A stretch of 64,000 nucleotides of DNA from Flavobacterium bernardetii (GTDB lineage Bacteria; Bacteroidota; Bacteroidia; Flavobacteriales; Flavobacteriaceae). Positions 19,592 through 61,191 of the stretch are shown here, piece after piece; position 1 is the first letter of the stretch; each line of letters begins with the position of its first letter. Below the pieces are notes generated by a model. It ran no database searches. It worked only from the letters and a program-made list of their open reading frames with translations, and had not been told where the DNA came from. The translations under genes were made by a program, and so were the position numbers. The stretch is from contig NZ_JAANOQ010000008.1 in the NCBI RefSeq assembly GCF_011305415.1, positions 1 through 64,000 on the forward strand. Direction: 5' to 3'.

Positions 19592-21229
<1,638 letters not shown>

Positions 21230-21347
21230 TTAAAGTTTAAGGTTATATTTGTTTAACGTTGAACAACCCATAAATCAATTTTAATAAATAATATTTTCAG
21301 AAATTAAAGCTTATTAACTTGAAACTTTAAACCTGAAACTAAGAGTT

Positions 21348-23602: not shown

Positions 23603-24874
23603 TTACAAATCAAATTGTTTAATTTTTCTGTATAAAGTACGTTCAGAAATACCTAATTCGTCAGCCGCAGCTTTTCTTTTTCCTTTATTTTTTTCTAACG
23701 ATTTTTTAATTAATTCTATTTCTTTGGCTTCTAAACTTAACGTTTCCGTTTCGTCTATCGTTTCTGCATACAAGTAATTGTTATTGAAATCGTCATCGTC
23801 GTCCTCAAATTCTTCTTGTTCTATTTCCTCTTCTTCAGGCAAAACCTTGATCTTCGATTCTTGTTCAAAAATAGTATTTTTTTCTTCAGAATTGCCATAA
23901 ATTTTCTGAATCAACGATTTATTATTTTCCTGAACTTTTGCTGTTCCATTTTGCATCAATTCTAATGTCAGCTTTTTCAAATCGGTTAAATCGCTTTTCA
24001 TATCGAATAAAACTTTATATAAAATTTCGCGTTCGTTACTGAAATCTGAAGTGCTTTTTTTCTCGCCAACTACTTGTAATGAATTACTTTCTGCACTTGG
24101 TAAATACGATTTTAAAGCTGCTAAAGAAATATCTCTATTCGCTTCCAAAACCGAAATTTGTTCTGCCGAATTTCTCAATTGACGGATATTTCCGCTCCAG
24201 CGATAATGCATTAAATAATTCACCGCATCATCTGATAATTTAATCGGAGGCATTTTATATTTGTGCGCGAAATCAGCTGCAAACTTGCGAAACAACAAAT
24301 GAATATCTTCTTTTCTTTCGCGTAAAGCAGGCAAATTAATTTCAACAGTGCTTAAACGGTAATATAAATCTTCACGAAATTTCCCTTTTTCAATCGCATC
24401 TAACATGTTCACGTTAGTAGCAGCTACAATTCGAACATTTGTTTTTTGTACTTGCGAAGAACCTACTTTAATAAATTCACCATTTTCTAAAACACGTAAT
24501 AAACGTACTTGAGTTGTTAACGGCAATTCCCCTACTTCATCTAAGAAAATAGTTCCGCCATCGGCCACTTCAAAATACCCTTCACGAGTTCCTGTAGCGC
24601 CAGTAAATGAACCTTTTTCATGTCCGAAAAGTTCCGAATCAATCGTACCTTCTGGAATAGCACCACAGTTTACCGCAATGTATTTTCCGTGTTTTCTGTG
24701 TGATAAAGAATGAATGATTTTAGGAATACTTTCTTTTCCCACACCACTTTCACCTGTGACCAATACAGAAATATCTGTAGGCGCAACCTGAATGGCTTTT
24801 TCTACGGCGCGATTGAGTTTTGGATCGTTTCCAATAATCTCAAAGCGTTGTTTTATGTTTTGAACTGATTCCAT
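23603..24874 (-). CDS. Sigma-54-dependent transcriptional activator without N-terminal sensor domain
   Basis: 423 residues. The AAA+ domain starts almost at the N terminus: Walker A GESGVGKES (41-49), the sigma-54 contact loop as GSFTGA (88-93) instead of the canonical GAFTGA, Walker B GTIFLDEVGEL, then a linker rich in Glu/Asp (EEEEIEQEEFEDDDDDF) and a Fis-type HTH (RKAAADELGISERTLYRKIK). With no receiver or GAF domain, its control must come from expression level or a partner protein. Its targets cannot be seen. Confidence 0.92.
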   Translation of the reverse strand: MESVQNIKQRFEIIGNDPKLNRAVEKAIQVAPTDISVLVTGESGVGKESIPKIIHSLSHRKHGKYIAVNCGAIPEGTIDSELFGHEKGSFTGATGTREGYFEVADGGTIFLDEVGELPLTTQVRLLRVLENGEFIKVGSSQVQKTNVRIVAATNVNMLDAIEKGKFREDLYYRLSTVEINLPALRERKEDIHLLFRKFAADFAHKYKMPPIKLSDDAVNYLMHYRWSGNIRQLRNSAEQISVLEANRDISLAALKSYLPSAESNSLQVVGEKKSTSDFSNEREILYKVLFDMKSDLTDLKKLTLELMQNGTAKVQENNKSLIQKIYGNSEEKNTIFEQESKIKVLPEEEEIEQEEFEDDDDDFNNNYLYAETIDETETLSLEAKEIELIKKSLEKNKGKRKAAADELGISERTLYRKIKQFDL

Positions 24875-24906
24875 ATATGTTACGAAGCAATTTCGTTTAT
24901 TTATTA

Positions 24907-24932
24907 GCCGCGAATTTTCGAATTTATCGAAT
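24907..24932. repeat. Left inverted repeat flanking the GxxExxY gene
   Basis: The 26-bp GCCGCGAATTTTCGAATTTA plus TCGAAT is nearly the reverse complement of 25333-25358 (24 of 26 positions). It abuts the stop codon of the GxxExxY gene. Confidence 0.85.
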
Positions 24933-25315
24933 TATTTTGTACTTACTAATCGTTTTCTTTCTAATGAAGCTTTATTGAAATTTACAATTAATCCAACATC
25001 TGCATCTGCTAACTTTATATAATTCAATGTTTGAGCAATATGTTCTTTAGATATTTCAGTTACAGATTTTATTTCAAGAATAATATCTTCAAAAACTATA
25101 AAATCTGCATAAAATTTATGTGGAAGAACTATTCCTTTATATTCAATTTTGAACTCTTTTTCGCGTTCAAAAGGAATTCCTCTTTCTTTAAATTCGATTT
25201 CTAAAGCATCTTTATAAACAATTTCCAGCAATCCTGGTCCCAAACTATTATGAACTTCAATACAAGCACCTATTACTTTAAAGGTGTCTTGATTTCTATA
25301 ATCTTCTAAACTCAT
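24932..25315 (-). CDS. GxxExxY protein (PD-(D/E)XK nuclease fold) in an inverted-repeat cassette
   Basis: 127 residues. The family signature GPGLLEIVY (28-GxxExxY-34) is present, as are the nuclease-fold residues Asp71, Glu81 and Lys83 in YADFIVFEDIILEIK. GxxExxY proteins (PDDEXK_3) are abundant in Bacteroidetes and have no settled function. The gene and about 17 bp upstream of it are enclosed by inverted repeats at 24907-24932 and 25333-25358. It sits inside an otherwise housekeeping run between miaB and a sigma-54 activator, which suggests insertion. Key residues look intact, so the protein may be active. Confidence 0.9.
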   Translation of the reverse strand: MSLEDYRNQDTFKVIGACIEVHNSLGPGLLEIVYKDALEIEFKERGIPFEREKEFKIEYKGIVLPHKFYADFIVFEDIILEIKSVTEISKEHIAQTLNYIKLADADVGLIVNFNKASLERKRLVSTK

Positions 25316-25332
25316 TATTTCGTTATCAATAT

Positions 25333-25358
25333 ATTCGAAAAATTCGAAAATTCGTGGC
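25333..25358. repeat. Right inverted repeat flanking the GxxExxY gene
   Basis: ATTCGAAAAATTCGAAAATT plus CGTGGC is the mate of 24907-24932. The pair encloses 452 bp. No clear target-site duplication is visible outside the repeats. Confidence 0.85.
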
Positions 25359-25374
25359 GTATATTTTTTATTTT

Positions 25375-26829
25375 CTAATTCATTATCTCAGAATATCCAA
25401 CTGCTTCCCCAATTAAGGTTCCACTTGTACAATCAGATATTTTTACTAGTACAAAATCTCCTGGTTTATAATTTTCTTTTGGAAAAACAACAACTGTACT
25501 TTGTGAATTTCTTCCACTCCATTGTTTGTCGGAACGTTTAGAATCTTTTTCCACTAAGACTTCAACAGTTTGTCCTACAAAACGTTGTGTGCGTTCTAAA
25601 GCAATACGTTGTTGTACTTCGATAATTTCTTGTAAACGACGTTTTTTTACTTCTTCAGGAATATCATCTTCCATTTTTCTGGCTGCTAAAGTTCCTGGTC
25701 GTTCCGAATACGAGAACATGAATCCGAAATCGTATCGAACATATTCTAATAAACTTAAGGTATCTTGATGATCTTCTTCAGTTTCTGTAGGGAAACCTGC
25801 AATAATATCTTGCGATAAAGTAATATCTGGAATGATTCTGTAAATATTATCCACCAACGTAATATATTCTTCACGAGTATGTTGGCGATTCATTTCTTTC
25901 AAAATTCTGGTACTTCCACTTTGAACGGGTAAGTGAATGTAATTACAGATGTTATGATGTTTTGCCATCACTTCAATCACTTCAAGATGCATGTCTTGTG
26001 GATTTGAAGTTGAAAATCTAAAACGCATTTTTGGAAATTGCGTCGCACATCTGTCTAACAACTGAGCAAAATCTACCGAAGTTGCTTTTTGCATATCACT
26101 TGCTTTTTCGAAATCTTTTTTCAATCCGCCACCATACCAAAGGTAACTATCCACATTCTGACCTAATAAAGTAACTTCTTTAAAACCTTTACTCCATAAA
26201 TCGGCAATTTCTTCAATAATACTTTCTGGTTCACGACTACGTTCACGACCACGAGTGAAAGGCACTACGCAAAACGTACACATATTATCGCAACCACGAG
26301 TTATCGATACAAATGCTGTAATTCCGTTGCTACTTAAACGTACTGGTGAAATATCTGCATAAGTTTCTTCACGAGAAAGAATTACGTTTATCGCATCACG
26401 ACCATCTTCTACTTCTCTTAATAAATTTGGAATATCTTTGTAAGCATCTGGTCCTACAACCATATCAACAATTTTTTCTTCGTCTAAAAATTTTTCTTTT
26501 AAACGTTCTGCCATACAACCTAAAACCCCAACTTTCATTTTTGGATTGATGTCACGTTTTACAGCATTATACATTTGTAATCGCTTACGAACGGTTACTT
26601 CTGCTTTATCTCTAATGGAACAAGTATTTACTAAAACCAAATCGGCTTCTTCTAAAACTTGGGTAGTATTATATCCTTCATTAGCTAAAATAGAAGCTAC
26701 AACTTCACTATCAGCAAAGTTCATTTGACAACCATAACTTTCTATAAATAACTTTTTTTGGTTTTCTTTTTTTGTTTCCAAAACCATCGAAGTTCCTTGT
26801 TTGCTTTCTTCTATAACCTTTTCTTCCAT
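25375..26829 (-). CDS. miaB: tRNA-2-methylthio-N6-dimethylallyladenosine synthase MiaB
   Basis: 484 residues. The N-terminal MTTase domain has three cluster-binding Cys (ESYGCQMNFADS, VNTCSIRDKA, VLGCMAERLK). The radical SAM motif is RGCDNMCTFCVVPFTRGRERS, followed by a C-terminal TRAM domain. It methylthiolates i6A37 in tRNAs reading UNN codons, using two 4Fe-4S clusters and SAM. RGRERSR.P favours MiaB over RimO. A promoter with both elements lies upstream. Confidence 0.96.
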   Translation of the reverse strand: MEEKVIEESKQGTSMVLETKKENQKKLFIESYGCQMNFADSEVVASILANEGYNTTQVLEEADLVLVNTCSIRDKAEVTVRKRLQMYNAVKRDINPKMKVGVLGCMAERLKEKFLDEEKIVDMVVGPDAYKDIPNLLREVEDGRDAINVILSREETYADISPVRLSSNGITAFVSITRGCDNMCTFCVVPFTRGRERSREPESIIEEIADLWSKGFKEVTLLGQNVDSYLWYGGGLKKDFEKASDMQKATSVDFAQLLDRCATQFPKMRFRFSTSNPQDMHLEVIEVMAKHHNICNYIHLPVQSGSTRILKEMNRQHTREEYITLVDNIYRIIPDITLSQDIIAGFPTETEEDHQDTLSLLEYVRYDFGFMFSYSERPGTLAARKMEDDIPEEVKKRRLQEIIEVQQRIALERTQRFVGQTVEVLVEKDSKRSDKQWSGRNSQSTVVVFPKENYKPGDFVLVKISDCTSGTLIGEAVGYSEIMN

Positions 26830-55033: not shown

Positions 55034-55089
55034 ACACAGATTTCACAGATTAACACAAACCAATCTGTGAAATTTGAGTAAATCTGTGT
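55034..55089. repeat. Compound inverted repeat between two cluster genes
   Basis: ACACAGATTTCACAGATT (55034-55051) pairs with two right-hand segments: AATCTGTGAAAT (55062-55073) and AAATCTGTGT (55080-55089). The sequence looks like a dispersed flavobacterial element rather than a terminator, as there is no T-run. Confidence 0.7.
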
Positions 55090-61094: not shown

Positions 61095-61180
61095 TTTTTG
61101 TTTAAAGTTTCAGGTTTAAAGTTTCAGGTTTATTTACTATTTTTACACTCTTGTTTTAAACTTGAAACATTAAACTTGAA
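61095..61180. repeat. Intergenic AGTTTCAGGTTTAAA repeat
   Basis: TTTAAAGTTTCAGGTTT is present twice in tandem and again in inverted form (AAACTTGAAACATTAAACTTG). The reverse complement of the unit also appears upstream of groEL (about 21318-21338). A dispersed intergenic repeat with no gene. Confidence 0.6.
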
Positions 61181-61191
61181 ACAGTATTAAA

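Follow-up and report, generated by a model that had tools for sequence, protein, structure and literature searches.

Results

A nuclease-fold gene between inverted arrays

In the window, the 64-kb stretch of Flavobacterium bernardetii DNA analysed here, a GxxExxY gene sits in a run of same-strand genes leading from miaB to a sigma-54-type activator and is enclosed by two inverted arms (Table 1). The initial annotation had described these arms as inverted repeats, and they do match at 24 of 26 positions; they can be extended to 31 nt at 87% complementarity (24902-24932 and 25333-25363), and the gene's final base falls within the left arm, a 1-nt overlap. Of 20,000 Markov-simulated pairs of equal size, 6 scored as high as the arm pair, and among 3,170 pairs of the same geometry along the window the element itself was the single one to do so; a chance origin is unlikely. 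What did not stand is their simplicity as 26-bp repeats: both are present, but each is really an array of a short unit, and comparable arrays lie beside many other GxxExxY genes.

Table 1. Features of the element and its surroundings in the window
Feature	Position	Strand	Remarks
Whole element (arm, gene, arm)	24907..25358	-	452 bp; in orthologous pairs the exchanged segment starts and stops at the arms
GxxExxY gene, 127 aa, predicted PD-(D/E)XK nuclease	24932..25315	-	TIGR04256, PF13366
Left arm, GCCGCGAATTTTCGAATTTATCGAAT, three degenerate units	24907..24932	+	
Right arm, the left-arm array inverted (minus strand GCCACGAATTTTCGAATTTTTCGAAT)	25333..25358	-	
miaB, host gene upstream of the element and outside it	25375..26829	-	used as flank control
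Sigma-54-type activator, host gene downstream of the element and outside it	23603..24874	-	used as flank control
Gene-less short palindrome of CACAGATT-type units	55034..55088	.	possible solo copy of the arm family

The encoded protein matches TIGR04256 in NCBIfam (E 4.6e-42) and PF13366 in Pfam (E 1.4e-38), and these two families alone were recovered from both collections at E 0.001, with no transposase or recombinase domain. Its catalytic residues D71, E81 and K83, noted earlier as intact, are invariant among 98 aligned family sequences, and Q95 and Y99 are nearly so. A search of PDB sequences gave no match at E 0.01. The nearest solved fold to its AlphaFold model (pLDDT 95.1) is that of SSO0001 (4ic1; Foldseek E 1.7e-4, TM 0.60), a Cas4 nuclease. 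VIA-align likewise placed SSO0001 first (Z 9.8), and its next best match, at Z 7.5, falls below the Z of 8 under which we did not count relatives; fold matches to RecE, LHK-Exo, AddAB and lambda exonuclease were weaker than that to SSO0001. PHROG 1706, labelled 'CRISPR/Cas system associated', also matches the protein (E 4.6e-7), and PADLOC returned a weak match to PDC-M36A (E 4e-4). The protein has a single cysteine, which excludes a Cas4-type iron-sulphur cluster. Its model is that of a minimal RecB/Cas4-type nuclease. At the miaB site, the gene shows purifying selection (mean pN 0.150, pS 0.638; 66 pairs).

Anatomy of the arms

Across elements, most arms comprise two to four recognised units of approximately C-R-C-N-R-A-(G, T or A), mostly 8-12 bp apart, and the array often begins with AACC or GCC. 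Arm sequence varies from element to element, and unit type and spacing tend to agree between the two arms of one element: the first two unit spacings are identical in both arms in 32 of 39 cases (permuted mean 5.3, maximum 13). Unit identity between the arms of gene-bearing elements is 683 in register against 673.3 out of register (s.d. 4.4); in-register copying is weak there and clear for gene-less palindromes alone. Arm mismatches, read in mRNA sense at 98 loci, comprise 180 G.U-type and 179 A.C-type pairs, with no RNA wobble bias. This missing bias and an in-register identity barely above the out-of-register value speak for protein recognition of the DNA rather than for an RNA stem.

The letters of the arms carry a further signal when placed on the protein tree (loci L038-L147). 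On that tree the last unit letter takes 7 changes (shuffled mean 13.4, minimum 11) and the unit spacing 21 (shuffled mean 32.4, minimum 25); the second unit letter does not track it (15 changes; shuffled 17.0, minimum 13). Judged by this fit, the last arm letter and the spacing follow the protein across loci.

GxxExxY genes and matched arms in other genomes

GxxExxY genes occur in 79 of 101 genus genomes and in 101 of the 198 phylum genomes sampled, in keeping with the earlier remark that they are common, and, as that remark also held, the available portions of the open-licence literature gave no function for the proteins (the term 'PDDEXK_3' gave nothing). The genome of F. bernardetii itself has nine family members at different places. 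At the eight loci that entered the comparison of flanks, inverted repeats are visible at each, their sequence differs between copies, and the matched arm score tops both its row and its column at 6 of the 8. The matrix of matched-arm scores used 32 of 37 loci, the five cut by contig ends being dropped.

The annotation had linked its proposal to inverted repeats flanking GxxExxY genes elsewhere, and for a large part of the loci this is what we find. In the phylum set (29 of 30 loci usable), 14/29 lie above the 95th percentile of mismatched arm pairs, and none of the 29 does so when flanks 500 bp farther out are taken. A wider set, with 74 of 80 loci usable, all from genome contigs, spans Verrucomicrobia, Planctomycetes, Chloroflexi, and acidobacterial and deltaproteobacterial records, among others; here 52/74 exceed the 95th percentile and 37/74 the 99th, against 0/66 in the control 500 bp farther out. 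The 95th percentile is missed by 15/29 and 22/74 loci, respectively; in some of these loci units can be recognised, yet a mismatched partner of the same type reaches as high a score.

The gene points the same way as both neighbours in 90 loci, runs against a co-directional pair in 8 and stands in other arrangements in 19, with a further 17 that could not be judged. Many copies in the genus occupy a few shared sites. We rejected the idea of phage or plasmid cargo, given that a single query protein (L014) matched 0 of 50,697 phage and 8 of 72,556 plasmid records. One record typed as a plasmid (L212; NZ_OY725952.1, 24.8 kb, Bacteroides) has its GxxExxY gene between radA and a gene for an FAD protein, among chromosomal-looking neighbours, and may be a mislabelled chromosomal piece. 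A possible tandem pair, two same-strand GxxExxY genes about 400 bp apart (match to match), was seen at G190:C4:68680-69767.

Exchange and overwriting at the miaB site

Occupancy of the site between miaB and the sigma-54-type activator is patchy. Among the best matches in 60 genomes, F. bernardetii included, 11 of 30 site loci hold the gene (its own copy among them, and one frame-broken), and 19 are without it; some of the latter keep single-arm remains or a different palindrome. The annotation had named presence of the gene and repeats at this site in all relatives as a finding that would speak against mobility; the site is not filled in all of them, yet the pattern is not that of a recent one-off insertion either. 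Five alignments of unfilled with filled loci differ across the whole intergenic stretch, the unfilled locus usually having another palindrome or gene, and give no clean empty site. Neither they nor the exchanged pairs revealed a target-site duplication, in agreement with the first inspection of the window. In the interval between miaB and the activator at L157 and L172, another small gene, presumably YcxB-like, lies between GTTTAAAG/GTTTCAAG arrays, and GxxExxY is absent.

Close relatives of the window protein (E 1e-40) are present in 129 of 398 genus genomes, and of the 91 loci retrieved through protein search, of which four come from genomes fetched twice, 90 fall at the same miaB/sigma-54 site. 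The lone exception, L267, failed merely a filter on the start of the activator match; ten more loci, for a total of 101, came via the site itself and carry no evidence on site fidelity. Free hopping of the window lineage was not seen. The proposal of a minimal mobile element survives in one respect, namely that the arms bound a block that moves at the miaB site, and fails in another, since the lineage does not hop freely.

Arms and gene behave as one unit at this site. Left and right arm types are concordant in 80 of 89 same-site elements, and their identity is 0.780 (89 of 96 distinct same-site elements used), compared with 0.620 and at most 0.662 after shuffling. Arm type needs 10 changes on the tree of the gene, against 34 on that of the activator and 38 on that of miaB; after shuffling the figure is about 45. 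The gene's tree distances correlate with those of the two flanks at -0.05 and -0.12, whereas the flanks correlate with each other at 0.87 (3,916 pairs). L227/L283 and L253/L287, for example, combine flanks that are 92-98% identical with genes at 69-70% identity and unlike arm types. Among the closest pairs, sorted by mean flank identity, those with unlike arm types number 0 of 1 at 0.97 or more, 4 of 10 at 0.94-0.97 and 36 of 48 at 0.91-0.94. One of the four, L283/L294, differs in left-arm type despite genes 90% identical, and so arm letters can also drift without a change of gene.

The differing block spans arm to arm, with 30-70 nt of the miaB 3' end added in some pairs and sharp ends in others. 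In the reverse situation, the block from arm to arm is about 95% identical between F. croceum and a distant species, with pS 0.17 in the gene and 0.70 and 0.74 in the flanks. The gene is more similar than either flank in 13 pairs, ten of which trace to one exchange, and L068 and L222, with identical genes, were likewise counted as one exchange.

Remains of an element of another type lie downstream of 7 of 91 delimited elements, of which 58 have the 25 nt or more able to hold them; all seven are AA-type. AG-type arm remains follow L171, L242, L246 and L261, and a GA-type arm together with the 3' end of its gene follows L238, L250 (88 nt, 92% identical) and L260. We left out weaker or one-sided remains (L230 right, E 2.5e-4 with mixed letters; L241 left) as well as low-complexity, same-type or doubtful ones (L220, L254, L290 and L164, and the left-hand matches of L171, L233, L238, L242, L274 and L277). 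The seven may represent few independent events, and their two remnant types imply at least two independent overwriting events. The trees and remains show that, at the miaB site, arms travel with the gene from species to species and displace other versions, a pattern that we read as exchange and overwriting at a fixed site.

At a second shared locus (25 distinct copies, one arm type), the gene correlates with its flanks at 0.48 and 0.57, against 0.59 between the flanks, and inheritance looks mostly vertical; a third, with five copies, looks vertical. What is shown, therefore, is exchange at a single locus and not a general behaviour.

Gene-less arrays and a parallel around IVP genes

Arrays also occur on their own. 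In 464 kb of the F. bernardetii genome (the window plus 400 kb), we counted nine array chains, partly palindromes and partly single arms, against 0 or 1 in each of five Markov controls. One arm pattern, allowed at most one mismatch, has 483 matches in the 79 genus genomes that own a GxxExxY gene (51/79 positive, up to 54 per genome) and 4 matches in the 22 genomes that do not (3/22 positive; Fisher p 2.3e-5), counts that include the arms of gene-bearing elements and come from related, non-independent genomes. The reversed pattern, used as a control, has 0 matches in all 101. This array type is almost confined to GxxExxY-owning genomes, which is an association and not proof of dependence.

In one genome, G042, an inverted partner was recognised at 17 of 20 fetched sites when up to 8 mismatches were tolerated in one arm, and at 6 of 20 when at most 3 were. 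The variable letters of its gene-less palindromes agree between arms at 45 of 68 positions (shuffled mean 24.3, maximum 39). By eye, some of these palindromes contain a further palindrome or a terminator hairpin; in other species, arms of other types surround the hairpin at two sites. At L350 and L353, and at the same sites in L369-L373 and L389-L391, a terminator hairpin is enclosed by inverted arrays whose types differ between species; L350 and L360 have nested palindromes.

A second kind of gene is found in the same setting. The F. bernardetii genome has 14 matches to IVP four-helix-bundle genes (the 23S rRNA IVP type), with inverted arrays around those that we examined. These arrays use other units, GTTTAAAAG, GAAAGTC, GGAAGAT and similar (L198-L211). 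In a test of 12 of the 14 matches (two pieces of a broken gene omitted; one of the 12 under the family cut-off), 10 score above the 95th percentile for mismatched arm pairs, 9 of these above the 99th. Because IVP genes lie between comparable arrays, the architecture is wider than one protein. In the part of PMC5524665 available to us, four-helix-bundle genes are merely named in a table. Two gene-less palindromes of GTTTCAGG/GTTTAAAG units in the window (61107-61182 and 21228-21332) resemble the IVP-type arrays.

Discussion

Our preferred reading, to which we give a probability of roughly 0.57, is that the locus holds a self-bounded, homing-like selfish element: a gene for a minimal RecB/Cas4-type nuclease, placed between inverted arrays and in line with the host operon. 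By this account the nuclease would bind the arrays as several protomers, on units about one helical turn apart, and would cut a rival element or a related array, after which host repair would copy in the incoming arm-gene-arm block, sometimes converting some of the flank or leaving an old 3' end in place. The same nuclease would keep gene-less palindromes circulating as non-autonomous copies.

A broader claim is more tentative, and we hold it at somewhat less than even odds: that this is a class of selfish DNA not described in the literature searched, in which a minimal Cas4/RecB-like nuclease recognises inverted arrays of a short unit whose letters and spacing can change, copies its block over rivals at the same site and keeps gene-less palindromes circulating, with protein and array co-evolving, and with IVP as a second, unrelated protein of the same architecture. 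If protein and array do co-evolve, the array letters could be read as nuclease specificity.

The alternative that survives best, although we consider it unlikely, is a polymorphic nuclease locus for self/non-self recognition that benefits the host, for instance in defence. Its arms would be recognised or protected sites, and its alleles would be swapped by ordinary recombination under selection for diversity, with no self-driven movement. Such a locus would fit the divergent alleles at one fixed site between near-identical flanks, the purifying selection, the gene's alignment with host operons and the weak PADLOC match. However, the arms are part of the exchanged block, the old 3' end that is sometimes left is unlike what clean swaps through the flanks would give, gene-less arrays are dispersed, and the gene is missing at 19 of the 30 site loci.

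It is also rather improbable that the arrays are an independent family of palindromic repeats, which forms around small genes and hairpins, perhaps through template switching, with GxxExxY genes merely caught between them. An arm letter and spacing that track the protein, an arm type that tracks the gene and not the species, and an array type almost limited to GxxExxY-owning genomes all speak against it. The best argument for arrays forming independently of the nuclease is their presence around IVP genes, and arrays around terminators, with unit types differing by species at one site, point the same way, as does the agreement of variable letters in the gene-less palindromes of G042.

We judge an ordinary insertion sequence, with terminal inverted repeats and the nuclease as its transposase, very unlikely: inverted repeats at both ends and nine family members at different places of one genome, the eight examined having different arms, would suit it, but arms that differ between copies of one genome are also a point against it, as are the lack of any target duplication seen, a lineage that stays at one site and PF13366/TIGR04256 as the sole domain matches. 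Least likely is an element acting at the RNA level in the manner of rRNA intervening sequences, whose arms would pair in the transcript and then be processed, since the missing wobble bias disfavours an RNA stem even though the reading frame lies in the loop of a potential stem and is far more often in line with its neighbours than reversed inside a co-directional pair.

Among known systems, the selfish-element reading comes close to free-standing homing endonuclease genes (intronless homing, as with Seg and Mob of T4-like phages), for which the part of PMC2988022 available to us describes a single small nuclease gene, horizontal replacement at a site and some conversion of the flanks. The GxxExxY element is likewise a single small nuclease gene with horizontal replacement at its site; it spreads faithfully to that site against the host tree at miaB, though not clearly at the second locus, and in some pairs, though not in others, the miaB 3' end differs along with it, which may reflect flank co-conversion. 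Unlike homing genes, it is bounded by inverted arrays that travel with the gene, has a RecB/Cas4-like fold and is accompanied by dispersed gene-less arrays; and unlike Seg and Mob, it resides in bacterial chromosomes of many phyla, with none in the phage records searched with one query.

The dispersed palindromes recall REP palindromes with their RAYT transposases, short palindromic repeats that, according to the part of PMC2817692 available, are scattered through a genome and tied to a resident gene. Here too, palindromes are associated with a resident gene, but its family and fold are PD-(D/E)XK and not HUH tyrosine transposase, and the units of its arms, arrayed 8-12 bp apart, vary in sequence by element. 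By analogy, the element would operate as free-standing homing nucleases do, with dispersed palindromes in the manner of REP/RAYT, and we do not file it as a member of either.

Other comparisons concern single features. The model shares a RecB/Cas4-like nuclease core with SSO0001, LHK-Exo, AddAB and RecE; unlike Cas4, the protein has 127 aa, one cysteine in place of the four that bind the Cas4 iron-sulphur cluster, and an element of its own. The 23S rRNA intervening-sequence elements (S23/IVP four-helix-bundle reading frame) are described in the accessible part of PMC4990558 as one small reading frame inside terminal inverted repeats and are called selfish there; the GxxExxY element has the same layout, with an unrelated protein, other units and no sign of an RNA stem. 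With insertion sequences it shares terminal inverted repeats and not a recognisable transposase or recombinase domain. The open-licence literature searched yielded no description of a nuclease gene bracketed by inverted arrays, and searches with array strings returned, as far as the titles go, unrelated work.

If the selfish-element reading is true, GxxExxY proteins would be the engine of a widespread selfish element, dispersed palindromes of the CGCAAAG/CACAGAG type would gain an origin, and natural variation would supply many matched nuclease-array pairs for decoding DNA specificity. Beside two GxxExxY genes, an arm has seemingly grown into a tandem array, of 15 copies of 25 bp at L117:1519-1894 and of 5.1 copies of 64 bp at L002:1874-2194.
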